DNA of 64,000 bases from Magnolia sinica. Taxonomy: Eukaryota > Streptophyta > Magnoliopsida > Magnoliales > Magnoliaceae. Location of the stretch: the NCBI RefSeq assembly GCF_029962835.1, contig NC_080582.1, positions 69,312,177-69,376,176 of the forward strand, in the 5' to 3' direction. Made by a program: the position numbers and the translations under genes. Positions 1-61,297 of this stretch are shown one piece after another. The notes below the pieces were generated by a model. It worked only from the letters and a program-made list of their open reading frames with translations, was not told the DNA's origin and ran no database searches. Each line of letters starts with the position of its first letter. The stretch's first letter is position 1.

Positions 1-338
1 TCCTTTTTTATTCTTAAATATATTTTTCTCTTGTATCGTTTGAGGTTGAATTACAAATTCAACTTTAAATGAAGATTTAGATGAGAGGATAAAATAAGAT
101 CGGATGATAAATTGAGAGATTAATATTGTCCATTTAGCTTGTCCCTTAAATGATCTAAGCCGTATATCATACTCTGAGGCTATCTATACCATAGAATCAG
201 AGGGGTGATTAGACCCATCCACTCCAGTAGTGGTCAGGTGGACCGCTAGACATGAACTGTTCATCCTTGGCTTTGTGGAGGTCCCATATTGTGTAGACTG
301 TCAGATCCTGAGGGTTCACTCTTTCACACAGACTTTTA
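1..338 (+). mobile_element. 5' LTR (right-hand part) of an old plus-strand Ty1/copia element
   Basis: A segment at about 110-318 recurs in direct orientation at about 14570-14783 with scattered substitutions, as two LTRs of one element would. Directly after it, at 341-352, lies a sequence matching the plant initiator-tRNA primer-binding site except near its first bases (TTGTATCAGAGC against TGGTATCAGAGC). The left edge of the LTR lies outside the window or is too diverged to place; bases 1-109 show no clear match to the distal copy. The reading as an LTR is inference from the repeat pair plus the PBS. Confidence 0.5.
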
Positions 339-340
339 GT

Positions 341-352
341 TGTATCAGAGCA
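341..352 (+). promoter_or_regulatory. copia-type primer-binding site (initiator-Met tRNA)
   Basis: TTGTATCAGAGC followed by AACTC differs from the usual plant copia PBS TGGTATCAGAGC at one position. It starts two or three bases after the end of the LTR-like repeat, where a PBS should lie. It sets the direction of the element as plus and its internal start near 340. Confidence 0.55.
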
Positions 353-1273
353 ACTCAACGGCGGATCTCTGATTTGGTGTTTTAATCACGAAAGGTCATT
401 TGTCATTTCATTACATTATGTATTTTATTTTAATTATATATCGATCAATTACATATTCATTTATCTATTATTATTTATTTTCTTCCCGAGGTATGGGGAT
501 CAAATAATAATAAGTGTAATATCAATTATACGATATATGGATTTACATCCTATTGGCCCAATAAAGTTGGAGAGGTCAATCTTGAGAATTGGTAAAATTT
601 AGACATTGGAGATTTGATTAAGCCTAAATATAATACCGTATCATAGATTGATTTTGGGCAGTCGCAACCATAGACGTCGTCACTGCTCGCAGTGGCAGCA
701 ACCATGGCCATTATCACCGTGAACAACGGCAACTCGTAACACCTCTCTTATTAAATGGTAATCAAAGGGACTGATAATGGTGTGTGTTTATCATAATCCT
801 CTAACAAACATGTGGCTGGAATGTGCATCAATCTACACAGTTATGATTGTAAGGTCTTTTTTGGACGGAGGATAGCCCAGAAAACACAATCAAACTATCT
901 AAGCATATCCAATTGGTGGGTATGAAATGAACAGCTAAAAGGTAAATAATCAGTAATTCAAATCCAATAAATTTTGGGAGACTTTCCATTCCTAACTAGA
1001 CCCGTGGTTTGAATGGTATGGATTGGGGTATATATTTGCTACCATACAGTAGATGACTTACCACCAATTATTAGATGATGACAAACACATACAATAGTCT
1101 CTCCAACATTTATGCAAATGTTATCATTGGTTGAGAATTTTAGGATTTGGAATGAGGAATTTTATGATTTGGCCCACACCATTGAACGGTGCACGGGCAT
1201 TTTCTATTCTAGCAAGTAGACCATTGGTTTAGTAATCTTAGGCACGGAAGGTACAAGCTAAATAATGAAGCTA
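353..1273 (+). other. AT-rich leader of the copia element, no gene seen
   Basis: This stretch has no convincing reading frame on either strand. It sits between the PBS and the duplicated leader/gag block and reads as untranslated leader or unrelated AT-rich filler. Confidence 0.35.
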
Positions 1274-3237
1274 AATAATGAACCAGTGATCGACCTAATG
1301 GCTTTGTTAGAAAGGAAAATGGGACTGCTCCATTTTGGATATATGTGATATAGCCATTTTAATGGGATCATAATTACTGAAGGCTTAAAATCTCAGTTAA
1401 TGAAATCAATGGACAACAATTGTGTACAAGTAATTGTTGTCTATAGTCTCATTTGTTAGGTGGGTTCAAATTTAGACTTGGGCCCATTATTCTTATCATA
1501 GCTTCTTCTTCTTTTTTTTTTGTAAAATTATCTAAATCTGCCTTTTGTAATAAAAATAAAGGGACCATCATAAGCAATCCATGAGTGTTTGGAAAGCCCA
1601 TATGGACCTCATATTAATGTACAAATTGAAATGGACCGGATCTGAAGCCCAATTCACTTTCTTTCAAGATTAATTGTATCTTATTAAGGGTTTTTAATAA
1701 GCCATTTGTGGGTTGATTTAGGCCAAGTATTGGGAAGTGTCTTGGGTTTTTTGTAGCAATATCTAATTAATAGTATGGTCCGTTTTGATGATTAACGGTT
1801 AATATCTCTTGAAATGACGATGATCGATGTATGTATTAAAATAAAAGAACTAAAAATGATAAATTTCAAATTTTTGTGATCTTGATTATGATGTATTAGT
1901 ATCATGATTGTAATCATTTTTAGGTGGGCTACACATTTTTTGGAGTTCGACAACCAAAATGTATATCTCACGTGTTTCTTGATTATTAAATGTATGCATG
2001 CATGCATTAATGCATGTATGCATATATGGGAATGTAGATTCCTTCGCATATCCTACAATTCACTATTGATCAAGAGACCATTAGTGATCGGAACCATCAT
2101 CAATCGTGACGATCAACGTTAATGAGAGGATCTATCATCAACAGTAATCATTAACAATAATAATCTAATCCATCACAAATGGACATAATCATTGGTGATG
2201 ATATGACTCTCTTAACATCTGAGCACTTGTGTTTTTTTTTTTTTTTTTGAAATATGATGATAAGGTTTATATGTGTGATATAATTAGGCTTAATGCGATT
2301 AGATATAGTGCCATTTTTTATTAGAAAATAGAAAACTTAATGTTAGGGTGCTCTTTATATAAAGGTTGTACATAACCTGAGTGGGAGTTAAGTTTCATCC
2401 ACCAAATGATGCATACAACCTGTAATGGAAGGTTGCATGTTATACAAATATATTCTAATAAAAGCCTCATATTCATCTTAAATAAGAGAACTTGATTGAT
2501 CTACACTGCACATTCGGGTATGTGGACTTTCAGATTTTGTTGAGATAAATTGACTACTTTTATACTTTGAAATTTTGAATAATATGTAGAATGCTGATAA
2601 TTAGTGTCAATATCTTAAATCATAGCTAAGTTGTGATACTTAATGCAATGTAGAAATGATCACCAAAGCATTAATCGTTGAAAAGCTCAAAGGTCAACAA
2701 TTCGATGGCAACAACTATGAAGATTGGTCCCGCGCGGTGCAAAGCCTTCTAGACGAGGACAACATATCGCATACACTAGATGAAGTTTAAGAGAAACCTA
2801 TATTGATAAAGAACATAAATTTGTGAGAACATAAGACTGCAATGAACCGCTACAATAAGTAGTGTAAATCTCTCTGCCCATAATGTCCTAATTAGCACAG
2901 TGCACAAAGAACTCATTGTATGAAGTGCATGACACGGCTAAAGGGATATGGGATGCATTAGCAAATGCCTATGCGCAGAATTCAGATGCAAAAGTTCGGA
3001 CAATGGAACTGGAGTTCCAAGAATACAGAATGTCAATCGGCTGTCCTATTAAAAATCATATCCACAAAATGGAACAGATGATAGGCGCCCTTATGAATAT
3101 GGATTTCAAATTGACTGAAAATCAAAAGATAATAGCAATGCACCGTTCCTTACCCGAATCTTGAGCCTCAATCAAAAGAATTCCGAACCATACTGATTCT
3201 ATCTCTATGTTTAGAGACTTTCGTGCCATTTGGTCAG
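1274..3237 (+). repeat. first copy of a ~1.97-kb tandem duplication (leader plus gag start)
   Basis: Bases from about 1274 to 3237 recur from about 3238 onward, offset by 1965-1968 bases and in the same order: an LTR-like or leader tract with a TATATAAAGG box (about 2357), then a gag start at 2656. The match begins about 13 bases before the first plausible TG end, so the copy boundary does not coincide with an LTR end. That favours tandem duplication over two real LTRs. The gag in this copy stops inside the coding region near 3236, where the second copy begins. Confidence 0.6.
2656..3236 (+). pseudogene. truncated copia gag, upstream copy
   Basis: Translation from the ATG at 2656 gives a copia gag N-terminus (MITKALIVEKLKG, then a YEDWS core), which stops after about 44 codons at a TAA. 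The frame resumes at 2916-3164 with the conserved stretch that aligns with the downstream gag (AKGIWDALANAYAQ, then ENQKIIAMHRSLPES). A further stop (TGA) follows at 3163. The sequence then runs into the second copy of the duplicated leader, so the protein could not be completed. In an intact element this protein would form the particle shell around the RNA. Decayed and truncated. Confidence 0.7.
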
Positions 3238-4600
3238 CCATAATGGACCGATGATGGACCTAATGGCTTTGTTATAAAGGAAAATGGGACTGCTCCATTT
3301 TGGGCAAATGATATAGCCATTTTAATGGGATCATAACTATTGAAGAATTGAAGTCTCAGTTAATGAAATCAATGGAAAACAATTTTGTATAAGTAATTAT
3401 TGTCTATAGCCTCTTTTGTTAGGTGGGTTCAAATTTAAGCTTGGGCCCATTATTCTTGTTGTAGCATTTTTTTTTTTTAAAAAAAATTGTGAAATTATCT
3501 GAATTTGACTTTTGTAACAAAAATAAAAGGACCATTATAAGCAATTCATGAGTGTTTGGAAAGCCTATATGGACCCCATATTAATGTACAAATTGAAATG
3601 GGCCAGATCTGAAGCCCAATTCACTTTCTTTCAAGATTAAGTGTATCTTATTAAAGGTTTTTAATAAGTCATTTGTGGGTTGATTGAGGCTAGGTATTGG
3701 GAGTATCTTAGGTTTTTTTTAGCGATATCCAATTAACAGTACAGTCCATTTTTTATGATTAATGGTTAATATCTCTTGAAATGATAATGATCGATGTATG
3801 TATTAAGATAAAAGAACTAAAAATGATAAATTTTTGAATTTTTGTGATCTTGATTATCATGTATTAATATCATGATTGTAATCATTTTTAGGTGAGCTAC
3901 ACATTTTTTAGAGTTCAACGACCAAAATATATTTCTCACATGTTTCTTGATTATTAAATGTATGCATGTGTGCATTATTGCATGTGTGCATGCATGAGAA
4001 TGTAGATTCATTCGTATATCCTACAATTCACTATTAATCAAAGGACCATTAGTAATCGAAACAATCATCAATCGTAATTATCAACACTGATGAGAGGATC
4101 CATCATCAATGGTGTTCATTAATGGTAACGATCGAATCCATCACAAATGGACATAATCATTATTTTTGATAGGATTCTCTTAACATCTAAGCACTTATTT
4201 TTAAAATAAAAAAAAAATATGATGATAAAATTTATATGTGTGATATAATTAAGCTTGATACAATTAGATCTATGGCCATTTTTTAGTAAAAAATAGAAAA
4301 CTTAGTGCTAAAATGCTCTCTATATAAAGGTTGTGCATAACATAACTGGGAATTAAGTCTCCCCCACCAAATGATGCATGCGACCTATAATGGAAGGTTG
4401 CAGGTTATACAAATGTATTCTTATAAAAGCATCATATTCATCTTAAATAAGAGAACTTGATTGATCTACACCGCACACATTCAGGTATGTTGACTTTCAA
4501 ATCTCATTAAGATGGGTTAACTACTTTTATACCTTGAAATTTTGAATAACACGTAGAAATGTTGATGATTAGTGTCAATACATCGTATCATAGCTAAGTA
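3238..4600 (+). repeat. second copy of the duplicated copia leader
   Basis: Matches 1274-2630 with many substitutions and small indels, including the TATATAAAGG box (about 4320), the ATGATGCATGCGACC region and the run into gag. A weak PBS-like string (GTATCATAGC) occurs at about 4585, just before gag. This leaves open a second model in which this block is an LTR. Confidence 0.55.
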
Positions 4601-4623
4601 ATGATACTTAATCCAACGTAGAG

Positions 4624-7600
4624 ATGGTCACCAAAGCATTAATTGTTGAACAGCTCAAAGGTCAATAACTCGATGGCAATAACTACGAAGACCGGTCCCA
4701 TGCGATGCGAAGCCTTCTGGACAAGGACAACATATTGCATACACTAAATGAGGTTCAAGATGAACCTATATTGGCTAAGAACAAAAATTTATGAGAACAT
4801 AGGGCTGCAATGAACCACCACAACAAGTAGTGTAAATAAAATTGTTCTGCCCGTAATATTCTTATTAATACAATGCACAAAGAGCTCATGCCGATGTATG
4901 AATTGTGTGACTCCACTAAAGCGATCTAGGATGCACTGAAAAATGCCTATGCATAGAAGTCATATGCAAAAATTCGGACAATGAAATTAGAGTTCAAGGA
5001 ATACAGGATGTCTGTTGGTTACCCTATTAAAGATCATATCCACAAGATGAAACATGTGATAGGCACCCTTAGGAATATAGGGTTCAAATTGACTGAAAAT
5101 CAAAAGATAATAGTAATCCACCATTACTTGCCCGAATCTTGGGCCCCGATCAAAAGAATTCTGAACCATATTGATTCTATCACTACGTTCAGAGACTTTT
5201 GTAGCCATTTGGTACAAGAGATTGAAATAAATACAATTCAGGTAGGTTCGGCCAAAGCTTTTGCAGCAAAGACCCATAAGCGAAAAGCTAAAAGGAAACA
5301 GTCCAAAGCTCGCAAGAAGGCGAAGAAGTATGAACAATAACAAAAGTCCACTACACCTCCTCCAAATCTCAAGAATGGGAAAAGAAGAAAGAAGCAGAAA
5401 AGTCAAATATAAACTTTGGCCTCTATGCCCACTAATGTGCTCATAAAAAGATGGCAATTCCTAAGTCACTAAATACTTTGTATGTAGGCATTTGTTCTGA
5501 AATCCTTTCCGTCGATACTCTATCTAACAAGTGGATTTTGAATTCATGTACAACAGAGCACGTGGCACGAGAACGTCGAGGACTCGAGGAATTCCGGCCT
5601 AGAGCCACAAGTAGTTATAATATGTATATGGGAAATAATGTTGGTAAATACGTACTAGGGATTGGTGTTTACTGTCTCCGTACGCGCATAGGGCGAACAA
5701 TAATCCTCCATGATACTCTTTTTGCATCGGGCATGCATTAGAGTTTAATTTCTGTTTCTAAATTGTTAGTTGATGGTTTCGATATTTATTTTTCCGGGAC
5801 ATGGGTTTCTTTAAGACTCAATAACCTCATCTTTACATGGAAAATTTTAATTTCATATTTATATATTTTATACGTGGATAGTAATAATGCACATCTTGCT
5901 TTATTTACTATGTCGAATGAAATATAGTAACTGAATCTCTAAAATGGCACGTGAGGTTACGTCACATTAAAAAGAACCGTATGACAAGACTAGCACGCTC
6001 TGGTTTTTTGGATTTATTATTCAAAGTTGATTTGTCATTTTATGAACATTGTGTGTGCGAAAAGACCTTGAAGAAGCAATTCCCTAAAGCAGTTAGGTCT
6101 AAGGGCTTACTGAAGATAATCCATTCATATATTTGCGGACCATTAAATGTACGTGCTAGAAATGGATGTTAATACTTTGTCATTTTTATTGACGATTACT
6201 TGTACTATGGATGTGTATCTCATCTCACAAACATATGAGGCCTTTGATTATTTTCTCAAATGTAAAAGTGAGGTGAAAAATCAGCTTGAGAAAAATATTA
6301 AAATCCTTCAGTCCAATAAAGGTTTCGAGTATACATTGGAAATATTCAAATCATATTGTGAAGACATTGGCATTGTATGGTAGGACATAATGGCTTACTC
6401 TCCACAACAAAATATAGTTGTAAAGAGAATGAATAGGACACTATTAGATATAATTAAATCAATAATGGCATAAGCCTATCTCTCTACCACATTTTGGGGA
6501 GGCGCGGCTAACAGTCGTCTATGTCCTTAATAGAATCACGTTTAAATCCATTCATATGACCCCATATAAGAAGTGGACTGAGATGATTCCTTCTCTAGCC
6601 AACATACGCCCTTCGGTATCTTTGGAATATGTTTTGTTGCTTGCCCCTTATAGAAGTAAACCTGATAGTAAAATCATTAAATGCGTGTTCATTAGGTACC
6701 CCATGCATTCAAATGGATACGTTCTAGTTTATGAGGATCGTAAATGATAGATTGAGATAAAATTTCAGAACATGACCTTTGTCGAAGATATACATCCCAG
6801 CCGAAAGAAGCAAAAGGTTGCAATAGAACTTTTTAAAATTCTTGATATATCTCAAGAGAGAGAGTTCTGCTTTTCAAAATGAAGATGCTCATATAGTTCG
6901 TTGGGACAGTAGGAGCACATTTCTCAATATGCTCCTGAGTTACGTCGAAGCGAAAGAGGATTGATTCTCCGAATATACTTCGATATTGAGAGTTAGCCAT
7001 TCTCTTGTATTGTGGTTGATGATGATGAACATTATTCTTATCAGGATGCATTATTGTTTCCTAATTTGGCCGATTGGGTGACGACTATGGACGAAGAGAT
7101 CGCTTTTATAGAGAAGAATAAAGTCTGAGAAATTGTAAATCCGTCTTCCTATCGCAAAGCGATAGTTAATAAATGGGTACTCAAGATATTAAAAAAAATG
7201 TAAATGGTACAATGGACAAGTACAAAGCACAATTAATTGCTAAAGGTTTCATACAAAAATAATGCATTAATTACGAGAAGACTTTTTCACCTGTTGCAAA
7301 TTTCTCATCAATCCACACGACCTTGTCCATTGTCGCAAATTTAGACTTAGAGTTATTTCAGATTGATGTAAAAACTGCATTCTTAAATGATGACTTGGAT
7401 GAAGAAATATACATGCAACAATTCATAGGTTACGTAGACAAAAAACATCCAAAGAAAGTCTGCAAGTTGTTGAAATCTATCTATGGGTTGAAGCAATCTT
7501 CAAGACAGTAATACATGAGGTTCCACTTATCTATCACCACTTTCAAATTTGCAATGAGTAAAGAAGATCATTATGTATATATAAAACGGTCTAGAAGATC

Positions 7601-8583
7601 TTTTATGATACTATCTATATATGGAGATGATATCATGTTAGCTGGTAATGACATGCGATTGATGATGTTAACTAAAGACATAAAAGATCTTGGTGAAGCC
7701 AACTTTATTCTTGACGTAAAAATCATCAAGGATCGCCCTAGTAAATTCTTAGGCTTGTCTCAAGCCACTTACGTAAAGAAAATCTTAGAGCGGCTTATGA
7801 TGAAAAATTCAAAAGTTTTTGAAATCCCTATGGACGAAGCTACGAAGTTAGACAAAAAATTGTGTCCTCAAATTAAAGCCGAGAAATTGGTTATGTACTC
7901 AGTACCTTATGCAAGCGCAATAGGCAGCTTAATGTATGTTATGCTTTGTACCAAACTAGATATTAGTTATGTAGTTGCATAGTCAGTCGTTATCAGAGTA
8001 ACTGGGACAACCTCATTAGCAAGCCGCCAGACATATATTCCACTATCTTAGAGGAACAAAAGATCCAATGTTGTGTTATGATGGAACGAGTCTTGAGCTC
8101 AAAGGATATTCTGATGTCGTGTAGGGTAATGACACTAATAATGAAAAGTCTAATTCAAGATATGTCTTCTTAATTGAATGGAGAGCTATCTCATGGTCAA
8201 GTAAGAAACATACATCCACAACCCTTTCATTTATGGAGGTCGGGTACATTGCATTGTGTGTTGCAGTTCAGGAGTATGTATGGGTTCGCAAATTCTTACT
8301 AGGTCTGGGTGTTGTACGTGGTGTTGTACCGAGCGTTCCTGGGCCTATATCATTGAGGATAGACAATACTTCTGTCATTAACTTATCAAAGGACCTCAAA
8401 CACTATCGGAAGTCCAAGCACATTAAGATCAAGTATCATTATGTCCGTAATCAAGTGAGAGATGAGAAGGTCACCCTCAGCTACATTCCTACTAAGGAGA
8501 TGATGATTGATCCCATAACAAAACCTATAAGTAGAGATCTATTTCAAGTTCACATCAGACATATGGGATTGAGGAGAGCTTGA
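4624..8583 (+). pseudogene. decayed Ty1/copia gag-pol polyprotein (gag, PR, INT, RT, RNase H)
   Basis: The domain order gag-protease-integrase-RT-RNase H is diagnostic of Ty1/copia. Gag runs from 4624, with its best open part at 4981-5340 ending in a Lys/Arg-rich tail. The protease lies near 5530, where the usual DSG active site reads NSC, so the catalytic Asp is lost. Integrase fragments lie at about 5950-6750. The RT core at 7323-7980 holds DVKTAFL and, near 7620, YGDD in place of the usual YVDD. RNase H lies at 8090-8583 and contains the KHIKIKYHYVRNQV region and the C-terminal ITKPISRDLF motif. Many stops and frameshifts (for example 2-3 bases between the frames ending at 7511 and starting at 7515) make it non-functional. 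The element would have copied itself through an RNA intermediate. Confidence 0.88.
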
Positions 8584-8698
8584 GTGATATGCTTATATCA
8601 TGTACCTTTGATCTTTCATTAATGAATAATATATTCCATTTATTCAGTATTGAACACTAATATAAACTATGCTTGTGGATCATCAGCATTTACCTTAA
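8584..8698 (+). other. start of the copia 3' untranslated tail
   Basis: AT-rich sequence after the RNase H stop, cut by the DNA element inserted at 8699. The tail appears to resume at 12997, because the sequence on both sides of the inserts reads on smoothly if they and one TAA are removed. The TAA at 8696-8698 is the left target duplication. Confidence 0.5.
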
Positions 8699-10478
8699 GG
8701 GCCTGTTTGGTTTTACCAAATAACAGTATTTGGGGTGCAATGGGCAATTATGACATTTCACACTTGTTTGGTTTTTAATGGTATTCAACTGCATTAAAAG
8801 AACGACTGTAGTTGGTTCGATTCGGCGGTAAAGCATAATCCAAATCCTGCTACGATGCAGGTACTCGAATGAAATCGTCTGACGCCCGTCTTTCTGACTG
8901 AAATAAGTATGGTGGTCCGCGGGACACCATTCCACCTTAGCAGCTAGTAATACATATGCACACAACTATATTTTCATTCAGAATACAGAAGCCTTCACTC
9001 CTTTCCCAGCGAGACCGAACGGAGATTTCCACATGCAAGGTATGATCCACACCTTCCGAGTTCCATTTGCTGAAATCCTTCCCTGACGTCGTTAGAAGAT
9101 TGCCATCCTGGCCTGGTGATCTTCTTCCCTTTCAGCGTCCATGCTAACCATCCTTGTCTCTCTCGTTTACCAGATAGTGAAAGTTAGATCTTGCTGGAAG
9201 GGAAATAGACTGTTAATATAAGGCTTCGATTGCTGTTATCGGACGGCTACGTCTTCACGGCTACATCTTCTATCGGAAATAGACTGTTAAGGTAAGGCAA
9301 ATGATGGCTGTTATCTTCCATGGATTGCTAAGTGGATTTTTTATAATGTTTTTTCAAACAAACCTTGCGTTTTCTGGCATCTGGGTTCTTACTGTTGAGG
9401 TGTATGTTGAGTATTTTGGAAGATAGAAGCCTAGAGCCACTTCGAAGCTTTAACAAGACTTTCAGGTTGACAGGGATTTAGTGTGGGCCCATGGAAAGAA
9501 GTACCTTAAAAAAAACATTACCTTTTATGGACCGTTTGGATATACCGCAAATGGTGGAAATGGCAGAATGGGGTGGTCCTATGTGCTGTCTACATTCCTT
9601 AGCAGTTCTGGACTGTAATGTCCTTACGGACGTTTAGTCCTTGATGCCTTAATCCTGCCACTCATCATGTGTAAGAGGTAGATGATCCCGGCATATTTTA
9701 GCTGCAAAAACAGCCTTCCGCCATGATGTTTTTGCCAGATCATCTATAAATCCTCTGTTTACATTCTGTCAAATTTGTATAAAGAAGAGATACAAAAAAG
9801 AAAGATTGATTGTTATTTCCTGTTTTTTTTTCCTCTGTGTGACTAAGTAAAACACTGCTAATCTACAACAGAGATTTAGTGCCAAAGAACCACACTAGTG
9901 TGGTTCGGCTCTGTGAGATGGACAATTAGTTGCTAGTTGAATCGACATCTGGACAGTCCATTTGATAGACCATTTACAAGTGTTTCCACATCCATACAAT
10001 TTCATATCCATGCATGTTACTGTTTTGAGATGCTAACCATCTTCTTTTCAACCATTCAGTTACTTCTAATTAGGGTGGTTGGATGGTAAGGATCTGTTAA
10101 AGAGATTGTCCTGTTCTCACCTTCCATGTAATATTTCTTTGCTCATTGTATATAGGCAAAGACTCTCTTCCATATAGAACTGGCAAACTCATCCGTGATT
10201 GAGGTAAGTGTAATTCTCTACTACTGACTGTTTACGTTTTCTCTCTTATCCAACTTTATAATATTGTTCATATTTGCTTCGAATCAGTTGAAATAAAAAA
10301 GTGATTATCACAAGGGCATAGATGTTTTTATAATCGATTTATTATATACATGCAGTAGGTCTTGTAAATGTTTGTGTTGATTTCCTCTATCAAAGTGTGT
10401 TGGAGAATAGCACATTTCTTTACCACTTTTACAGCTTTATAAATTAAAAGTTGTTATCTGGAAAAACTAAACAGGCCC
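8699..10478. mobile_element. PIF/Harbinger-like DNA element A, non-autonomous
   Basis: The left end reads GGGCCTGTTTGGTTTT and the right end is its near complement (AAAACTAAACAGGCCC). Both ends are flanked by TAA (8696-8698 and 10479-10481), the 3-bp TSD typical of PIF/Harbinger and Tourist elements. The left ~65 bases match the left end of element B at 10657. No convincing reading frame was found inside, so it is probably a non-autonomous relative. An alternative is that 8699-12996 is one larger element with an internal rearrangement. Confidence 0.65.
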
Positions 10479-10481
10479 TAA

Positions 10482-10653
10482 CAGTAATCGACCTATCTGG
10501 CCTACATTACTCTATTGACAGTCCAAGTGCCCTGGTGAATCTCAGATTGGCATTTGGTTGAAGGGCTGTCTGTAAGTGCTCCAACTCAGAATTGAGTTAA
10601 ATATGTAGTTGTGGTCAGTTTCGAAATTAAGTGGGTGTTTGGGAAGACCTCAA
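10482..10653. other. spacer between two Harbinger-like elements
   Basis: About 170 bases flanked by TAA on both sides, with no frame or repeat recognised. It may be residual target sequence or a piece of one of the elements. Confidence 0.35.
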
Positions 10654-10948
10654 TAAGGGCCTGATTGGTTTTACCAGATAACAGTATTCGGCCTGTAATG
10701 GGCAACTGTGACTTTTCCACTCTTTACCTCTTTATTAATTAAAAGTTGGAAATACATATATCTGAATATCCAACTGACTGTTTACTCTGATAATACTTAC
10801 TCAATATATAGTGTACTCTAACAGTGAAATCAAATAATATATTTTTGTTTGAATTTGATTTCTTATTGTGTAACTGTTCTACTGGAATGATCAGTTTTGA
10901 TATTTAAAAATTTCACCCATTCTAGGGCTCCATTATCCAAATGACTGT

Positions 10949-11254
10949 TTGCTGTGTATAACGGGCTGGATTAAACTTTGGTTGAGTAAGATAGTTCATA
11001 GTATTAATTGGTCCGGATGTCAGGCAGTGAAGTCACTAGCGATAACAATTCACCAAGGAAAGGACATGGTCCGAATGTCACAGATTGTTCCCGCTTTGGA
11101 ACAGATTGAAGGGCTCACAGGACATGAGATCCTTCACGCTACAAAGATTCTATCGAAAGATGAGCAGCAGTCTGCCTCCTTCCTTTCACTTCGCGAGCAC
11201 AGGAAGTTGGACTTCGTGTTGATGCTTCTTTCACCGGACCACTCCTCCGACTGA
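10949..11254 (+). pseudogene. fragment resembling the C-terminal tail of a Myb/SANT-like protein
   Basis: The last ~55 residues (VPALEQIEGLTGHEILHATK, then LSKDEQQSASFLSLREHRKL) have the spacing seen at the C-terminus of plant Myb/SANT-like proteins of the L10-interacting-MYB/At2g29880 sort. In those proteins a helical 'LT..E...A..IL..DE..A..FL.L....K..FVL.LL' tail follows the DNA-binding domain. The DNA-binding domain itself is absent upstream in this frame. PIF/Harbinger elements normally carry a Myb/SANT-like partner gene for the transposase, which fits the location. The first ~45 residues look like non-coding sequence read through. The family assignment is from memory of the pattern and needs a profile search. 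Confidence 0.4.
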
Positions 11255-11784
11255 TCTCAGTTAGACGTACAGGGACTTTGTTTGTTTCTTTGGATGTTTT
11301 TTTGGACACTTTATTTTTGGACAATTGCTTTTGGTTGTTTTGGATAACTGTAGGTGACCTTATGTGGATGGATGTGCCTGTATAGAACAGGTCATGGATG
11401 TGCCTATATATAACGGGCTTTGGATGGACTTTGCTACTAGGATGGCAGTGTTGGACATACTGTCATCCTAAGGAAAATTTGACGACTGTTTGCATGTTTT
11501 TGGACTTGGTGGCTATGGTTTGTTGATACGTAACTGTCTGTTACACTGCATAACCTGCTTTTATTATTGGTTTACTATATCGATGATCTTTACAATGTTT
11601 GTAAGTTTTTTCTGTAAACCATTCCGTTAGATTTTGCAGGTGTTCGTAAGGTCGGTTCAGGTAAGTGAGAATAAGTACTTCAATACCATGTTGTCTATTC
11701 CACACAGGTACCATTTCAATTTGATTATCTAATTTTTTATATATTCCACTCAGATATTTTTACTCTTTTTTTGATAATGTGTAG

Positions 11785-12210
11785 ATGGTAAAAAAGCTAT
11801 ATGTTGTGTTCAACGGTCGCCGCCCTAGATTATATTATGACTGGGAGTGTCGTCGGGTGTAAGTGGAGGGATTTTCACAGGCACGTTTCCGTGGATACAA
11901 GTCGGCAGTCAAGGCATATCGTGAATGGTCTAAATGGTCCGAGAAAATGGGTGTTCCGGCTGTCCCACGGGACGAGATGGTAGTTGACCAGGAGAGTGTT
12001 AGGTCGCAGCATAGAGAGCGCTACAATGCCATCTACTTGAGTCATCCTGTTGGACAGACCTCGGCAACAACCTCTTGTGCCCCATATGACTTTGGCACAA
12101 AGAGATGGGGAGGTGTTGCAGATGAGGGAGACTGTGGGGCATTGGTCAGATTCATCTTTGGAATCTTGGTATTGGTTCTTCTCATTCAGCTTATTTCAAA
12201 GCTGAAGTAG
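11785..12210 (+). pseudogene. RNase H1-type hybrid-binding (viroplasmin-like) domain frame with hydrophobic tail, one stop
   Basis: From the ATG at 11785 the frame gives VKKLYVVFNGRRPRLYYDW, then a TAA at 11860-11862, then in the same frame VEGFSQARFRGYKSAVKAYREW. This is the hallmark of the small RNA:DNA-hybrid-binding domain found at the N-terminus of RNase H1 and in caulimovirus inclusion-body proteins (YVV..GR.PG.Y..W..C..QV.GF....F.GYK....A...W). The stop falls where the family usually has Gln, so one C-to-T change (CAA to TAA) would explain it. No RNase H catalytic domain follows. Instead there is a ~60-residue linker and a C-terminal hydrophobic segment (FIFGILVLVLLIQLISKLK) that looks like a tail anchor. 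The frame is otherwise open for 142 codons. It is unclear whether it is a captured host gene, a transposon accessory gene or a spliced remnant. Confidence 0.55.
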
Positions 12211-12999
12211 TGAGCACAGGTTGTGTTTGTATGGACTTTAAATGAGGTTGTTTTGGACAACTTTGAATTTACCTTTCTTGATGGACCATTGGTTACTGTT
12301 TTGATATGTTTGGTTGACAATGAATTTTTAGGTATCACAGCTACGATTGTACTCTATCTTTTTCGACCCCTATGACTGTTTTGTTGAAATAGGTAATGTT
12401 CGACTAATCAATGGTCCTAACATGGGGGAGGCCATTTGGGACGTCCGCTCATCCAACCGCCTCTTCTGTTTCTGATGGTGCTAACATGGTTGGGGCCACA
12501 GATGAACGGCGTGGATATAACACCGTCAGAAGGTGGGGCCTAGAAATAAACGGCGTGGATGTATCAATTGATGAAGGTGTGGCGCACTGATGCACAGCGG
12601 ATGAAACATGTGCAAAAAGTGGGGCCAATCCTCACAGAAGGCAGGGCCCACAATACATTGACCATGACTGCTGGTCCACTGTGTGGGAGAGACCGTCAGT
12701 CCACTCTTCTGTATGAGAATGCAATGGAAACAAACAAAATCAAACAGCCACTGCAGTTAAGTTAGCAATGAGGTGATGGACACCATAACACTGCAGCTAG
12801 TGTGATGCTTGTAATACTCTTATAAACCAAACAAAAGATTGCTGATTTGGTATAGAGTCCTTCCAAAAGATTGTAGAAATCAAACATGTGACTGTAGTCA
12901 ACCGAAATATAAGCAATCATTAAAAATACAAGTGAAACAGCAATCATTACTTCTTTACTTCCAAATACCGTGATAATTGAAAAACCAAACAGGCCCTAA

Positions 13000-13730
13000 G
13001 ATCACGTAGGATTTTTACTTTTGTCAGTAGACCGGTCATCCACTCGCACAGATTGACCAACCATGAATGTACAAGAGATGTACATTTGAAGTGATGTTTA
13101 TATGCTGATGTGCAAACATCCCTTTATTATGAATAATAAAAGATGTGGATACAAATGAGTTGTGTCTACCTTTAGTCCTAAGAGATTGAAGATGAGACTG
13201 ATCAAATAGAATAACATAATCACGCCATTGTTCTTCATACAATCAATGTTATGGCCCGAGGCTAGGTTGTGAGGATATGAAATGAATCATACCCCATGTG
13301 AGATGACATGCGTATTGTAGACTTGACATATACCTAGTATTGTCTACTTTACGACGTGCATTGTAACCACGTCTTAAGATTTTTTACATGCAGAATGCTT
13401 TGATTTAATATAATCATTGTAACATGCAAGTAGCCAGTTCCATAGGTGATTCCTTATGTCCTTAGCTACCCTCCTCTTGTGAATAAGAGGATGATATTGA
13501 GTGTCGTTACTTTAGTGTATCATGACGAAAGGCTCTTGATTGGCCAAACTCGGTTACAATAAGAAAACAGCTTGATTGATTCCAAATTACACATCTACAT
13601 GAGGAAGATCTTGTGACAACTACACTAAGTTTTTAGAATTATAAATATGCACTTAAAAACTTATCTGCTGGCAATATTGGGTTTTTAATAGACTTTTACA
13701 AAAGATATATATATATATATATATATATAT
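13000..13730 (+). other. copia 3' tail, resumed after the DNA elements
   Basis: AT-rich sequence with no convincing frame. It runs from the right TSD of element B to the AT microsatellite, and is read as the 3' untranslated part of the copia element before its 3' LTR. It ends in an (AT)n tract at 13705-13730. Confidence 0.4.
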
Positions 13731-14276
13731 GGGAAAAGATACTATGCGCTCGACCTCACGATAAGCTCCCATGAGGTCGAGCTGTGTGGGCCCCACCGTG
13801 ATGCGTGTCGACCATCAACACTGTGCATTTGATGGGTCCCCTTTAAATTATGGGATATCCCAAAAATCAGCCGTATACGGAACTCAGGTGGGCCATACCA
13901 TCTAAAATCATGTGAAGACACTGTTAAAACATATAAAAGCACTTGGTGGGGCCCACCTAAAATTTGCATGCATCTGAAACTTGGTGTAAACCCTCATCCA
14001 AGTGGGACACACATAATGGATGGGCTAGATTTACAAACCACATCTCGGTGGGCCCAAAAAATGGTTATGAATGTTTTAATGGTGCACAGCCCCTCTCCAC
14101 TTCTGTATGTGGTGTGGCCCACAAAAGTCATGAATTGACTTGATTTTTGAGATCTAGGCCCACGATGGAATGGTGCATCTGACTGATGGGGTAGATGTTC
14201 AAAACGCATCACGGTGGGGCCCACACAGCTCGACCTCATGGGACGGACTCGTGAGGTCAAGCGCATAGTACCTTTT

Positions 14277-14279
<3 letters not shown>
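13731..14279. mobile_element. MITE copy 1 inserted in an AT microsatellite
   Basis: A 549-bp element with long imperfect terminal inverted repeats. The left end begins GGGAAAAGATACTATGCGCT and the right end is its complement (AGCGCATAGTACCTTTTCCC). About 75 bases of each arm pair, including CTCGACCTCA and GTGGGGCCCACACAGCT-type blocks. It is flanked on both sides by (AT)n. A second copy lies at 60753-61297, also next to TATATA. No coding capacity. Confidence 0.85.

Positions 14280-14312
<33 letters not shown>
14280..14312. repeat. AT microsatellite on the right side of MITE copy 1
   Basis: (TA)n immediately adjoining the element, the partner of the tract at 13705-13730. Confidence 0.9.
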
Positions 14313-28559: not shown

Positions 28560-30534
28560 TATGGTTGTTGCATCTGTCTACCAGTATCTAGTAGTAGGAT
28601 TCAATGTTGATGAACTTACGGAGAAGAAATCGGTGGCCTGTGCCACCCAGAAGAAGACAACGGTCATGAGAGCGAGATAGGTGCCGAGGACGACGCCAGT
28701 GGCGAAGATCTCCTTGAGCTTCCATGAATCTGGCAATGGCGACGGCTTTACTCTGTCCTTGGAGATGGTCATGATGGTGCCGTCGTTGAGTATGGCAATG
28801 ACGAGGACCATGAAGGGAGAGAAATCAAACTTCCAGATGAGCGCAATGAGCATGAAGCCGAGCACAATCCTGATTGTGATGGACACTGCGTAGATTGTGT
28901 AGTTCTTCATCCTTTGGAAGATGGCCCGGCTGGTCAACACTGCGCTGATGATGACACTCAGGCCAGGCTCCGTCAGGACAATGTCGGAGGCACTCCGGGC
29001 TGCATCTGTTGCATCGTCCACTGCAATTCCGATGTCTGCCTTCTTCAGCGCTGGTGCATCATTCACTCCATCTCCTGTCATGCCACAGATGTGGTTCCTT
29101 TCCTGCAGCTTCTTCACTATCTCATACTTATGCTCTGCACCATTCAATCAGTAATAGTAGTGAGAGGCTGTTTGCTAGTCCAATGCATGCCAAGTTCCGG
29201 CCCACTCATCAGGTGGGCTAGCCATGTTGACAACCAGGCATGAAATTAGGTGGTCTACTCATCAGGCATGCCCTGCATGGACGAATAAATGGACAGTTAA
29301 AAGGATAAAAAAGTCCAATGTTCCATACATTGGAACACACACGTGGGTGGATCAGCCTGGTTGTTGGACTAGATCATCAACATTGTGTGGCCCACCTGAA
29401 AAGTGGCTCAGATGTTGTGCATCAGTAGTGAGAAAAGAATGATTAATATGCCTGGGAAAACTCCGGCGAAGCCATCAGCTTTCTCGATGAGCTCGTCGAC
29501 AGGGATAGAGGCAATGGACTCGTCCTTGCACTGGCCAAGGAGGGAGGAGGAGGGGTACATGTTGGTGCCCATGCCCAACCTGCGGCCCGTCTCCTTGCCA
29601 ATCGCAAGCTGATCGCCTGTGATCATCTTCACATTGACTCCAAGGTTGAGTGCCCTGCGGATGGTCTCTGCGCTATCATGCCTCGGCGGGTCAAACAGCG
29701 GCAACAGGCCCACGAATTGCCATGGCCCCCCAGGGCTCTCCTTGTTAGCCTCTGGCACCGTCTGGGACAACCATACGCCAATTCAGCTCTAAGAACATTG
29801 AAACACCAAGAACAAACACATGTTTTAACATTCCCTGTAGATGGGCCCCACCTGTCTGCACACGGCCAGTGAGCGAAGGCCGCGATCGGCAAACTTGTCA
29901 ATGATGGCATGGACTTTGTTCATGGCATCTCCCTTGAGGTCGCAGAGCTCAATGACCTGCCACATACACAAACACACATACTTAGAAAATGTGCATATGA
30001 ACACTGCTATACATAGCTCGAAAAGGTCTAGCATGTGCAGGATTACCTGCTCGGGTGCGCCCTTGCTGCACCTGTGCCACGTGCCGTTGGGCTCAATGTA
30101 AGTTATAGCCGTCCGCTTCTCCACAGGATTGAAGGGAAGGAAATGCACCTCTTCGATCCCTGCTCGTGCCTGCACGAGGATGCAAACAAGTGCATGCGCA
30201 AGTTCAATTACCCAAGTGAAAGCTAACATGAGCCAGGGTGGGCATTGTTCCTTTTTGTTTCAGCTGGGGAACGAAAAGTACTCAAATCATGGCTAACATT
30301 AGTTCTCTTGTCTTCCCACTCATGTTAGTGCAATGGTCAGCTTCTGAAACTACCCTCTAACAACAATGGAACACCCATTAGTTTGAAATGAGTGAAAATT
30401 ACAACTTTTCGATCAGAAGTGGACGGTGATGGAAAGTAGATGGTCCCAAGCAAGTGGCCCATTTTCATCATTGTCTGAGATTCACCTAGAGCCAGCAATG
30501 GGAACTCATGTAATGGTGCATTTTGTACTCGGGC

Positions 30535-30583
<49 letters not shown>

Positions 30584-33500
30584 TTTTCTTTTTCTTTTTC
30601 TGCAATAAGTGAATGATCTGTGTAAACCACCAATTGCGGAAATCGGCAATGTGTGAATTTATCGCCGTCCATCCTTTAAGTGGGTCATGTTTGATCACCC
30701 CACATTCCGAAAATTCAAATGAGTGTAACCCACTTCTCATCACTGCTGGACCTGATAGGATTCACTTATACCAGAAGTCCGCTTTGGGTGTTTGACACAG
30801 GATCCTTTCCCTCTCAAGTAAATCCAATGGGTCCCTTACCTCCTTGGGGTCAGCCAACATTCCGACGATGGACGTATCAATTGCATCCTGGTTTTCGACC
30901 CTTGAAGCCCTTGCTGCAAGCAACACAACGGTGTCCTTGTCCATATCCTTCACAAACACCTGCACCAATACAACCAATGCAAGAAACCTCAGCTGCCCGT
31001 CAGTTGTATCACACCTGCCAATAATCCAAAGTGTTTGATCTTTTCCTCTTCCTAGTCTCACCTCGATCAGGCTTTTGTCAACAGTAAGCTTGTTAAGTGT
31101 GAGGGTCCCTGTCTTGTCGCTGCACAGCACATCCATCCCAGCCAGCTCTTCGATGGCCGTCATCCTCTTCGTGATGGCGCCTTGCTCGGACAGACGGTGC
31201 GAACCAATGGCCATAGTCACTGACAACACCGTGGGCATTGCAATGGGGATACCACCAATGAGCAACACCAACAGATTGTCAATCCCATCTCTGTATTTAC
31301 GGCGTTGGATTGGATACATCACTATAATCTCTATGACCATGCCCGCGGCGATAGAACAAATACAGAAGTTACCAATGGCGGTAAGGACCTGAACAGCAAG
31401 CACCAGCCCAGTGCACATTAGCAGCAGAGTGTAAGCTGTTACTCACTATAAAATGGGGTGCAGTTGAGTGTTAGATATGTGATCCAAACCTTTTGGAAAT
31501 GTCCCACTTGGTTGGTGCTGTCCACAAGGTGGGCCGCCTTCCCGAAGAATGTGTGGACACCAGTGGCAATGACAATGGCCTCGATCTCACCTTGCTTGCA
31601 TGTAGACCCAGAGAAGACCTCATCTCCGGCATACTTGGTGACTGGGAGGGACTCACCTGTGAGGGCTGCTTGATCAATCTTGAGTGGATCACCCTCAAGG
31701 AGCCGAGCGTCTGCCGGAACAATGTCACCCAACTTGATGCTTATAATGTCCCCTGGTACAAGGATTGATGCATCTTGTTCCGTCCATTTCCCACTTCGAA
31801 GAACCTACATCCATCATCACCATGAGCCACCATGGCACACTGCACACTCCATAGTGCATGCTAGAAATTCCCCAGAGCATTTGCTAACATGCAGCATCTT
31901 ATCACCATGAAACTGGCCTAAGGATTTTCCCACTAACTTGTACTATCGAAAAATCCCAACTGTTGGCACGGGGTAGAATTCATTACCTTGGTCTTGGGAG
32001 CGAGGCCTGCCATCAAAGCAGCCGCTGCATTGCCCGCATTGTTCTCTTCAATGAAGCTGATCGTCGAGTTGATGATCAGCAACACAACAATACCCAAGAA
32101 ATCTGGCCAGTCTGGAGGTTTGCCCTGTACCCAAAAAAAAAGAGTTCATGAAGTGTGAAGCATGCATCGAAACATCTACACCGTCTATGTGTAACTTGTG
32201 CAGACCATTGATTTGCCCATCATGTGGATGGGCCATGGCCAAAATTCAAGGTAATTGGATAATGGTAAGCCATCTAATAACTGGCTGAAAATGGACAGTT
32301 TAATTCAATTTCGAACGAAAAATTAGTAAGATTCTGCATCCACCAACAAAATTCCACAAAGTGGTCAGTTGGTCAAGTGCTTCCAAGCCAATGCAATTTT
32401 CAGTGGCCCACCATATCAATGATTTGGATCATTGCAACAACTGATCCATGGACAAATAAACAAGTTTACCCCTCCATTCGCCAATGCAATGGCCATCAAA
32501 GCAGCGAGCTCCATAACCCATGACAGAGGATTCCACATGAAACCCAAGAATTTGAGAAGCTTGCTATCCTGTTTCCATCAAAACATAGAAGAATGTGAGA
32601 AATTTGAAGAGGAAATCTCATGAAAATTTTCAAACAGAAAAGAAAAGAAAAGAAAATATGCCTTTTTCTCTTCTAGCTTGTTTGGGCCAAAGATCTGGAT
32701 CCTTTGCTCTCCTTCTTCTGTTGTCAACCCCTCCTTTGTACATTTCAGCTGCTCAAACACTTCCTCCACAGGTATCCGCTCCTACACCCGATCATCACCA
32801 TACATTATCATCGTCGTCATCATCACCGTTAAATCAAAATGACAAAACTAGTTAAGATAACCCAAAAAAACAGACTCGATGACTCGATCTCCCACTGAGT
32901 CAGTTTACACAGAGACTGAGTCGACATGACTCAGTAAATGAATAAAGAATGTTTAATCTTTAAACACCATAATAAAATATCAAAATAATTAAAAATACTC
33001 TAAAAGAAGAACTTCCTTTCAGGGTACCAGTATTTACACCTGCAATTTTGATAGACACAACCTTTCTTTCTACTTTTGGGAATACAACTGCACAATATTG
33101 TACCGTTGTATTTGTCAAAAATAAAAATAAAAATGGGAGTAGATATCAATCATTCAATTTCCTATCCCAAAGTATAAATGTTATTAAAGGAGAAACCATC
33201 ACTTTCAAGAACTGTAATATCACCGATGTAGGACATCCCAGCCATGGAAATGGTGGGCCACACCATGATGATCAACTGGGCCAGAAATCAAGAAGATCCA
33301 CTCCACCTTGTGACTGGATTGGCATAATCTTGACACCAAATTTCCACTCATCAGGCACAAGATATCATCTCGGCCGCTCATCTAACTCGACATACTGGTG
33401 TGGCCCACCTAACGACCTGATCGACCCAACCTTACCGTAACTGATTTTCACAGAGTTCCCCACCTCTTTGACGGGAAAGATGAATCTCGCGTGACATCCA

Positions 33501-37663: not shown

Positions 37664-38269
37664 GGGCCTGTTTGGCCGGCTGAATTAGATGGGCATAGGT
37701 GGGATGGAATTGCATCTGGTCGTGTGCCAATTCCACTCCATGTTTGGGAAGAGTGGAAAAGCTTGGAAGTGGGCTAGATGTAATCGTATCTGGTCCCGTG
37801 CTAATATCACTCAATGTTAGCAAGTTGTGTAGGTCCAACCATGATGTGTGGGCTATATCCACACCGTTCACCGATTTTTAGAGATCATTTTAGAGCATGG
37901 GCCAAAAAATCAGGTAGATCTAAAGCTCAAGTGGACCCCACCATAGAAAGCAATGGGGATTGAATACTTACCGTTGAAAACTTCTTTGGAGCCACATAAG
38001 TATTGGATCTGCCTCATTTTTAGGCCCATGCCATAAAATGAGGTTACAAAACAAATGAACAGTTTAGATATAACACATGTATGTTATTGTCAATAGTTTC
38101 AAATGATGGTGGGTATATACTTTCAATGTACCACCGTATTACAAAAAAAAAAAAAAGGGAATTAAGCTTATATCATGGTAACTGGGAACAGTCCCTGCCA
38201 TGGGTAATAATGATGTTTTTGAATCCCATCCGACCTAATACCGTGGGATCGGTCCGGCCAAACAGGCCC
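37664..38269. mobile_element. Tourist/PIF-type MITE with TTA TSD
   Basis: Perfect 16-base inverted ends, GGGCCTGTTTGGCCGG and CCGGCCAAACAGGCCC, are flanked by TTA at 37661-37663 and 38270-38272. 606 bp, with a GGGCCCAC-family half-element nested at about 37820-38070 and an A13 run near 38143. No coding capacity. Confidence 0.85.
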
Positions 38270-58886: not shown

Positions 58887-60752
58887 AATGTGAACTGTTG
58901 TAGTATTTTCCCAATGGTTTTTGAAACACAAGCTCGAACAGGGTATTGCTTGAGATATTCTGAGGGTACAGTACATCCACAAGGTTTTCCCCAAGTCCCA
59001 ACAGATGAACGGTATGGATAAGATATAACCAGAGACCAGCAACCCAGATAATTGAAACATGGCCTCACTTTGACAAATTGAAAAACCAAGCATACCATCC
59101 GGGTTGAAGATCATGTAATTTCTCCCTAGAACAAGTTTTTAATACGGAGAATGGGGGCTATGGTTCAATGATCAAGACCATCAATATCATTGATCTCCAC
59201 ATGATGTATCAGGATTATGTAGCCAGCCCTAATTGATAGGGATAAAGCTTAGATGATAATTGATGATCTTATCAATGTGCAGAGGACGTTGGGCAGTCAA
59301 GGAACAACCTTTTCATAGGTTGAGTGTAACTGAAATGAGAATGAAGAGATAGTTCAGCAGCAGTAGAGGATTCGATGACCTACATTTTAATTGAGGATAT
59401 GGTTCTTGATAGAGAGTAGAATGGCATTGCCTCCTGTGATGAGAGAGTTAATATTAGGAGACATTAGTTCTCAAATAAGAGTATTGGGAATGATTTCCCA
59501 AGTGGAGCTTAGCTTTCAGAGAAAATGCTCAAGGCTCATTTACAATTTAACTGATTTGGCCTGTGATAGTGAAATGGTAGAAGAGTATTAGTCACGGGGT
59601 CTGTCATAACTAGTAACTGTCCTACGTATAAGTTAAATAATAATACTCTCATATGGTTTCATCATTCGAGTAGTTCTGTTTTTCAGCTGTTTCCTAATGA
59701 AATTCAGAATTCACATGGATTGGTTTATACTTAAAACTTACATTTTGAGAGAGGCTAATTGAAGAATCATATCCAATCAAGACCACACAATAAAATGCCG
59801 AACCAAATTTTAGCTTTTTTATAGCAAAAAACCTCTTCATTTTTATTGGATTTAAAACTGTTTACAATGAGGTCTGAGTAATTGGAAGTGATTTTTCTAC
59901 ATGCTAAAGGAAGGTAGAACTGGAAATCAAACCAACATAAATTTCACTATAGATGGCAGGCACACTGAGGATGTCCCAACTCCAAATTAGAATTGTCCAC
60001 TTCGCTTTATATGTAAAGATGGTTTTGCAATTTTTGCAATTTTTCCCCTTCTCCTCCATTTATTTATTTTTTTACACTTTTGCCTATTAGGATCAATTTT
60101 TAATTCATTTTTGACTAGATATTGCAATCCTTGAATATTAAATTACAAGATTTAAGCTGTTTTTAAAGACTTGAAGATGCAGGTCGAATAATAATTATGG
60201 ATTCTTTTTCTTGTTGCAAATTTATCAATCCAATATTATACTGCCGAATTGACCAAATCTTGCTAGATTTGGCCATTGTTTGTATTTATGCTGATTTTTA
60301 TTAACAAAACGACTGTTATGGCTTGTAATGTAACAGTTGAACACCACCAACTCTTGAATAAAGAGTTGGTTTAATCTGGAGTAGAGGGACCACCATTTTG
60401 TGGTTTCCTTGATGTCGTTTTTTGGCCTTTTGGCTTAGCTTCTCCTTTTATGAATTTCTATTATTAACAATACAAAAAAAACAAAAACACCTGACACACA
60501 CACACACACACATGATCTACTATACATTTTCAAGCATCCTGCTTGCAATATTCAACCTTCAAGCATCACACATGCAACTACGAAAACGTGTACACACACC
60601 ACAGCCTACATCGGTTACCATACATCTAAAAGTACCTTTGAGGAGCCACCATTAATCTGCAAGGGCCTCAAATGTGATATAAGCTATGTGCCACAAGATC
60701 ACTCCCTATTCCAATGCATTTGACAAGCAGCATGCAGGACATTATATATATA
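58887..60752. other. 1.9 kb without a supported gene
   Basis: AT-rich; no frame, RNA gene or element ends recognised. Contains a short (CA)n run at 60494-60511. Confidence 0.4.
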
Positions 60753-61297
60753 GGGAAAAGGTACTATGCGTCTTGACCTCACAATAAGCTCCCGTGAGGT
60801 CGAGCTGTGTGGACCCCACCGTGATGTGAGTCGACCATCAACACTGTGCATTTGATGGGTCCCCTTTAAATTATGGGATATCCCAAAAAACAGCTGTATA
60901 CGGAACTCAGGTGGGCCATACCATTTAAAATCATGTGAAGACACCGTTAAAACATATAAAAGCACTTGGTGGGGCCCACCTAAAATTTGCATGCATCTGA
61001 AACTTGGTCTGAACCCTCATCCAAGTGCGACACACATAATGGATGGGCTGGATTTGCAAACCACATCTCAGTAGGCCCAAAAAATGGTTATGAATGTTTT
61101 AATGGTGCATGGCCCCTCTCCACTTCTGTATGTGGTGTGGTCCACACAAGTCACGGATTGACTTGATTTTTAAGACCTAGGCCCACGATGTTATGGTGCA
61201 TCTGACTGATGGGGTAGATGTTCGAAACGCATCACGGTAGGGCCCACACAGCTCGACCTCATGTGACGGTGAGGTCGAGCGCATAGTACCTTTTCCC
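60753..61297. mobile_element. MITE copy 2 of the AT-microsatellite family
   Basis: 545 bp, starting GGGAAAAGGTACTATGCG and ending CGCATAGTACCTTTTCCC. It is colinear with 13731-14279 and differs at scattered sites only. Flanked by ATTATATATATA on the left and ATATATATATA on the right. Confidence 0.88.

Follow-up and report, generated by a model that had tools for sequence, protein, structure and literature searches.

We analyzed a 64,000-nucleotide (64-kb) stretch of the Magnolia sinica genome (contig NC_080582.1, positions 69,312,177 to 69,376,176 of the forward strand), referred to below as the window. At 8699-12996, the window contains a non-autonomous PIF/Harbinger DNA transposon of 4,298 bp, with ends resembling terminal inverted repeats (TIRs) and TAA on both sides. 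Within this element, an open reading frame (ORF) at 11785-12210 specifies an RNase H1-type hybrid-binding domain (HBD), a linker, and a C-terminal membrane-like helix (Table 1). The window copy itself is dead (i.e., a TAA lies in frame within the domain, and no transposase is left). Comparisons with relatives in the same genome point to this ORF as the likely third gene of a plant Harbinger lineage.

The original prediction read a YVVFNGRRP-type pattern in this frame as an HBD, and a profile search bore this out. Translated with X at its stop, the 11785-12210 frame matched PF01693 (RNase H1 HBD) with an E value of 3.7e-07 and 30.7 bits (curated cutoff, 21). In a six-frame scan of 10657-12996, PF01693 was the only family above its cutoff (27.8 bits). 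When the frame was compared with solved structures, human RNase H1 (3bsu) was the sole match up to an E value of 1, a weak one (E value of 0.21; residues 5 to 45). The stop in the frame was overlooked by the original prediction; because this TAA, at codon 26, interrupts the domain, the window copy encodes no such HBD protein. Splicing out of the stop through the GTAAGT at 11859 was considered and rejected, as the intron to the next acceptor-like site would be about 22 nucleotides, i.e., below the plant minimum intron length. Two further features of the prediction held. The domain is uncoupled from an RNase H catalytic domain: six-frame scans of 8699-10478 and of 10657-12996 detected none, nor was one seen in the open ORFs of 140 and 141 residues. 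It is also joined to a hydrophobic C-terminal run (Kyte-Doolittle hydropathy, 2.76). Of 296 stop-to-stop ORFs of at least 60 amino acids in the window, only this one had a 19-mer with a value of at least 2.75 in its last 30 residues, a threshold set after the value of 2.76 was known; a threshold of 2.0 was reached by 4 of the 296. By hydropathy, the frame is a predicted tail-anchor candidate, with a membrane-like segment near its C terminus. A single-sequence structure model of the frame had low overall confidence (mean predicted local distance difference test [pLDDT] score, 51.7); where the domain lies, it showed two helices and two strands. Only its C-terminal helix (residues 114 to 140) was confident, with mean pLDDT values of 92 for residues 121 to 130 and 94 for residues 131 to 140.

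A DDE transposase was not found in the window copy, either in six-frame scans of 10657-12996 and 8699-10478 or with the transposases of relatives as queries. The original prediction had placed a Myb/SANT-like tail next to the HBD frame. Judging from relatives, 11018-11254 is indeed the tail of a Myb/SANT ORF, but the proposed check against PF12776 gave no match, neither in 10901-11251 nor in the six-frame scan of 10657-12996; PF23950 remained below threshold there (18.7 bits versus 27). What the prediction missed is that the transposase and the Myb domain were lost from this copy by an internal deletion. The remainder of the 64-kb window served as a control and gave no match to the transposase, Myb, or HBD queries at an E value of 1e-3.

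A search with the DNA of 11700-12300 in the assembly from which the window comes (1.84 Gb in 127 contigs) yielded 43 matches (40 of 42 first-look candidates scored). Twenty of the 42 matches other than the window were fetched with flanks (designated here by L numbers), and 21 copies, including the window, were aligned and assigned by us to subfamilies A (10 sequences) and B (11 sequences) from genome-match identities. In L009, DDE_Tnp_4 (PF13359, 51.8 bits), Myb_DNA-bind_3 (PF12776, 62.4 bits), and the HBD (Cauli_VI, PF01693, 51.4 bits) follow each other in this order on one strand, and the ORF for the HBD and tail is a 140-residue open frame. Other copies with an intact frame, for which the original prediction had proposed a search, do exist: the HBD ORF is free of stops and frameshifts in L009, L012, L018, and L024, but the remaining 17 of the 21 aligned copies carry one or the other. 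All 21 copies have a stop at the identical end position and a recognizable tail. On whether relatives lack the frame at the same position, the fetched loci, which were themselves selected because they resemble the frame or PF01693, do not speak against the prediction.

A PF01693 profile search of the genome produced 1,159 first-look candidates, of which 150 were scored, all 150 above the cutoff; this plant genome shows a great amplification of PF01693. Eleven further loci were fetched, six picked by hand (open-frame classes plus the two top ranks) and five in an even-step sample of the scored list (ranks 8, 36, 64, 92, and 120 of 150). Harbinger genes lay upstream of PF01693 on the same strand at 8 of the 11 loci (4 of 5 in the even sample), and a transposase did so at 7 of the 11. 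According to tblastn, transposase, Myb domain, and Myb tail were all present in this arrangement at the hand-picked loci L029, L030, and L031 and at the even-step loci L035, L037, L038, and L039. According to Pfam, L030 contained DDE_Tnp_4 (87 bits), Myb_DNA-bind_3 (60.4 bits), and Cauli_VI in order on one strand, with no match for its Myb tail at an E value of 0.01; L029 contained Myb (78.5 bits) and the HBD, with HTH_Tnp_4 under its cutoff and the transposase detected by tblastn. PF01693 scored 51 to 65 bits in L009, L012, L029, L030, L031, and L032. With one locus taken per family (seven families), the transposase pieces were 43 to 66% identical and the HBDs 37 to 71% identical. Transposase and HBD distances were correlated across 11 loci with >90 aligned transposase residues, several of which are close relatives (r = 0.83; 0 of 5,000 permutations as good). 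By eye, the same groupings appeared in both matrices (L009 with L030; L029 with L031 and L037; L035 with L038).

A hydrophobic C-terminal helix was retained across these families. Each of the nine single-frame proteins has one (hydropathy, 2.41 to 3.25), and four of five tail pieces, selected by eye from downstream frames, reached 2.17 to 3.55. An R-x-x-x-G motif, also recognized by eye, was present in the helix of 10 of 14 proteins or tail pieces. The HBD and the anchor occupy separate frames in L033, L034, and L035, as if in two exons, and the HBD piece of L037 holds a stop. The ATG is immediately preceded by a splice-acceptor-like YAG in the window copy as well as in L009, L024, L029, L030, L031 (at its second ATG), and L039; in L033 to L036, the YAG lies four bases upstream of the ATG. 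L012 has AAG before the ATG, and L018 and L032 are without YAG. As background, AG precedes 586 of the 8,653 ATGs in these sequences. Seventeen columns are invariant across seven proteins, three of them from the window family, including Y6, G11, R12, P14, G15, and W20 (L009 numbering). In the human RNase H1 HBD (3bsu), which shares PF01693 with these proteins, W43, F58, and K59 are contact residues. Y29 and W43 are retained in all 11 HBDs compared, the F58 position is occupied by F, H, or Y, and the K59 position varies (K in 2 of 11). Unlike the human enzyme, the proteins described here have no RNase H catalytic domain and possess a membrane-like tail. Nucleic acid binding by these HBDs appears plausible, because Y29 and W43 are kept, though K59 is variable and K60 is replaced (for Y29, K60, R52, and A55 of the human HBD, see PMC7657459, cited here, like all sources given by PMC number, from excerpts). 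L033, L034, and L036 are high-scoring HBD loci that may represent solo derivatives or host genes; an anchor-like tail was seen in a separate downstream frame of L033 and L034.

Codon substitutions between the two subfamilies show purifying selection on the HBD. The ratio of nonsynonymous to synonymous substitution rates (dN/dS) between A and B was 0.42 for the HBD (codon bootstrap, 0.24 to 0.78), 0.95 for the linker, and 0.62 for the whole ORF (0.44 to 0.86), where sequence pairs are non-independent, the bootstrap resamples codons only, and stop and gap codons are excluded. The other two reading frames gave 0.77 and 0.81, six pairs of open copies gave 0.45 to 0.76, and the HBD ORF within subfamily B gave 0.50. 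For the other genes of the same loci, dN/dS was 0.41 and 0.60 (transposase pieces), 0.54 (Myb region), and 0.30 (Myb tail), with copies covering half or less of the reference ORF omitted (8 to 10 A and 8 to 11 B sequences remaining). Copies decay, and dN/dS is therefore expected to be drawn toward 1. The recent pair L030/L039 (synonymous/nonsynonymous codons: HBD, 3/3; Myb, 8/7; Myb tail, 3/9; transposase piece, 3/3) was unfit for a test of selection because it has too few differences.

As the original prediction stated, the HBD frame is carried by a DNA transposon with Harbinger-type ends. That prediction delimited the element at 10657-12996, but the true left end is at 8699 and 10657 is internal. 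G(N)5GTT, the TIR motif of PIF/Harbinger elements (PMC2213677), is present as GGGCCTGTT at 8699 and in a reversed copy that ends at 12996. Target-site duplications of the TWA type were found as TAA/TAA around 8699-12996, L022, and L012 and as TTA/TTA around L019. L022 is a single element of 6,034 bp (31-6064) with TAA on both sides, and its ends are homologous to the window ends at 8699 and 12996. L012 together with its upstream stretch spans 8,483 bp (101-8583), likewise between TAA flanks, with outer ends corresponding to those of the window element; the outer left end of L009 was not found within 2,500 further bases. Single TAA flanks prove little, because the inner left end, when taken as a terminus, gave non-matching flanks in L009 and L016 and matching pairs in L012, L019, and L022. 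The internal block was matched in six of nine fetched subfamily-A copies (L009 to L012, L015, and L016), partly matched in L017, whose fetched stretch begins inside the block, and unmatched in the A copies L013 and L014. Subfamily-B copies L018, L020, L022, and L025 align on either side of the block yet skip it, and the other B copies are uninformative. An arrangement of two adjoining elements (8699-10478 and 10657-12996) was dropped, since the block recurs in subfamily-A copies and the outer ends recur in L022 and L012. The block, with its facing pair of TIR-like sequences, may record a former fusion of neighboring elements (Pack-TYPE-like).

Table 1. Features of the Harbinger element in the window (window coordinates)
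Feature	Position	Strand	Basis or remark
Left TAA flank	8696..8698		Sequence
Non-autonomous PIF/Harbinger element, internal-deletion derivative	8699..12996	+	TIR-like ends, TAA flanks; outer ends match those of L022 and L012
Outer left TIR, beginning GGGCCTGTTTGGTTTT	8699..8725	+	Sequence
Internal block containing a facing pair of TIR-like sequences (10452-10478 and 10657-10683), 178 bp apart	10452..10748
Deletion junction	11012..11024		About 3.3 kb of L009 (752 to 4046), including transposase and Myb domain, missing in the window copy
C-terminal tail of Myb/SANT ORF1 (assigned from relatives)	11018..11254	+	84.6% amino acid identity to L011 tail; PF23950 sub-threshold
AG of a 3' splice-site-like sequence (tgtag), directly before ATG	11783..11784	+	Sequence
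Third ORF, disrupted in the window copy (HBD, linker, and C-terminal membrane-like helix)	11785..12210	+	PF01693, relatives
HBD, PF01693 positions 1 to 41	11794..11916	+	Profile search
In-frame TAA stop, codon 26, inside the domain	11860..11862	+	Sequence
Transmembrane-like helix ALVRFIFGILVLVLLIQLI	12139..12195	+	Kyte-Doolittle 2.76; predicted helix
Outer right TIR, imperfect	12960..12996	-	Likeness to outer left end by eye; aligned with 10657 only
Right TAA flank	12997..12999		Sequence

Elsewhere in the window, a possible further Harbinger-type miniature inverted-repeat transposable element (MITE) of about 600 bp, with TTA flanks and GGGCCTGTTTGG ends, lies at 37664-38269. Copia-like frames (reverse transcriptase and an RNase H end; labeled by eye) lie just upstream of the element at 7512-8583, and frames like those of a plasma-membrane P-type ATPase (also labeled by eye) occupy 28578-31442 on the minus strand. 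A tandem duplication of about 2 kb (1275-3234 and 3240-5213; 84.5% identical) and a repeat pair (13720-14293 and 60743-61310; 93% identical) were also seen.

The original prediction left two options, a transposon accessory protein or a captured gene. Our data favor the accessory gene, since copies of the family, and diverged Harbinger families too, have the frame in a corresponding place; the captured gene is the less favored of the two. We put the probability that the ORF for the HBD and tail is the third gene of a plant Harbinger lineage, and not a one-off capture, at about 0.82. The simplest account is that this gene is old and was probably gained before the compared families parted. Several observations weigh against this interpretation. 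All loci come from a single genome and were picked by their HBD, not by their transposase. No Harbinger protein was detected by tblastn near 3 of the 11 further loci (L033, L034, and L036), only a Myb tail was detected at the hand-picked L032, and the transposase piece of L031 had no Pfam match at an E value of 0.01. The termini of L029, L030, L031, and L032 were not paired, and among the copies examined, none was shown to have all three genes intact. With one locus per family (seven), the correlation between transposase and HBD distances was 0.40, equaled or bettered by 261 of 5,040 permutations. A stop falls within codons 117 to 140 in 5 of the 21 aligned copies (L015, L016, L021, L022, and L027), the tail piece of L038 is weak (hydropathy, 1.92), and none was picked for L036. 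The dN/dS value of the tail between A and B (0.47; 0.16 to 1.32) is not significant alone (P = 0.064), and that of the HBD ORF within subfamily A is 0.76. Finally, K60, a contact residue in the human domain, is replaced in 11 of 11 HBDs.

A fragment of a host HBD gene could have been captured once by a Harbinger element, in the manner of Pack-TYPE elements, and be a mere hitchhiker. Excerpted reports document both Pack-PIF elements (PMC8903248) and PIF transduplications in Vitis (PMC2528002); moreover, the window copy is broken, and its internal TIR-like block recalls the neighboring-insertion model of capture. A single event of this kind is nevertheless improbable, given that the same ORF stands downstream of the Myb ORF in families as diverged in their transposases as those compared above, that HBD codons are constrained, and that the hydrophobic C-terminal helix is retained across families. 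Chance similarity in noncoding DNA would be compatible with the length of the ORF, which is not above expectation (310 of 1,000 shuffles gave an ORF of at least 115 amino acids on either strand), but it is refuted by the E value of the profile match, the open relatives, and the HBD codon constraint, and its probability is negligible.

The name of PF01693, Cauli_VI, comes from the viroplasmin of caulimoviruses, and insertion of such a virus (an endogenous pararetrovirus) into the element might accordingly be the source of the frame. We consider this origin highly improbable. Caulimovirus viroplasmin is a long protein with further domains, whereas the protein described here has 125 to 145 amino acids and a C-terminal anchor-like helix. 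No viral domain was detected in the six-frame scans of 10657-12996 and 8699-10478, and queries with the single protein and the alignment gave no confirmed relative among viral contigs; neither viral nor prokaryotic relatives were confirmed in sequence searches. Another proposal agrees that the ORF is a third gene and differs in function only, having the protein act at a membrane or on translation like the caulimovirus transactivator, which works in translation. The membrane-like tail would suit such a role, as would the domain held in common with a viral protein that is said, by Mushegian in 1994, to facilitate translation. That viral protein has additional domains, and we judge this role rather unlikely.

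Compared with known systems, the lineage that we favor has the TWA target sites and GGGCCTGTTTGG-type TIRs of two-gene PIF/Harbinger elements and, in relatives of the window copy, their DDE transposase and Myb/SANT ORF1 (PMC4482050, PMC2213677, PMC2836001), but here a third gene encodes an HBD with a C-terminal anchor-like helix. The excerpted survey gives two ORFs for most of its candidate autonomous PIF/Harbinger elements (PMC4482050). Harbinger-related elements with an added gene are described as HarbingerS with SET and as TET/JBP+ PHISTA of rust fungi (PMC12730594); the genes added there, as excerpted, come from oomycetes and fungi and encode enzymes of chromatin or DNA modification, whereas the plant elements described here combine an ordinary Myb ORF1 with a small protein that has an HBD and a membrane-like tail. 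ANKLE2, an animal protein of the endoplasmic reticulum (ER) and inner nuclear membrane, likewise combines a caulimovirus-type domain with a membrane anchor (PMC11103583, PMC13179284), but in these excerpts its anchor is N-terminal, it has LEM and ankyrin domains, and it is the product of a host gene. The viroplasmin gene capE of Pleurotus shows PF01693 borne by a DNA transposon; however, in the excerpt this is a single gene captured by a Helitron of a fungus rather than a third gene that recurs (PMC4289320). Among the matches listed in full-text literature (mostly without subscription papers, and with Repbase outside the scope), no report described Harbinger elements with PF01693 or with any hybrid-binding domain, and in the literature as searched we found no earlier description of an HBD paired with a membrane-anchor-like tail as a Harbinger third gene.

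In our reading, the window holds a dead, internally deleted copy of a family whose longer members encode a DDE transposase, a Myb/SANT ORF1, and one more protein. In this third protein, which has about 125 to 145 residues, a loose linker connects an N-terminal RNase H1-type HBD to a membrane-anchor-like helix at the C terminus. By comparison with tail-anchored proteins generally, the third protein would be anchored by its tail in the ER or nuclear envelope, with the HBD facing the cytosol or nucleoplasm, where it may bind RNA:DNA hybrids or RNA. It would thereby raise the success of the element, for which the foremost candidate route would be the shielding or sequestering of element RNA or R-loops from host silencing. 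This route would resemble that of other transposon-borne anti-silencing genes (PMC12730594), and as a specific mechanism it is doubtful. The broader picture of an ancient, co-inherited, membrane-anchored hybrid-binding protein in a three-gene plant Harbinger lineage, acting at the ER or nuclear envelope on element RNA or R-loops by counter-silencing or tethering, is tentative.

Tourist-like MITEs, which are mobilized by PIF/Harbinger elements, have been described as the most abundant elements (PMC2836001). PIF/Harbinger elements themselves are currently thought of as two-gene machines. If true, a three-gene lineage would account for the abundance of PF01693 copies in this genome. Plant proteins annotated with the RNase H1 N-terminal domain alone are common, and the third gene might explain proteins annotated in this way. 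With a conserved third gene, the life cycle of a cut-and-paste transposon would gain both a new component and a membrane, and it would become possible to test directly if R-loops or element RNA play a part in PIF/Harbinger silencing or movement.

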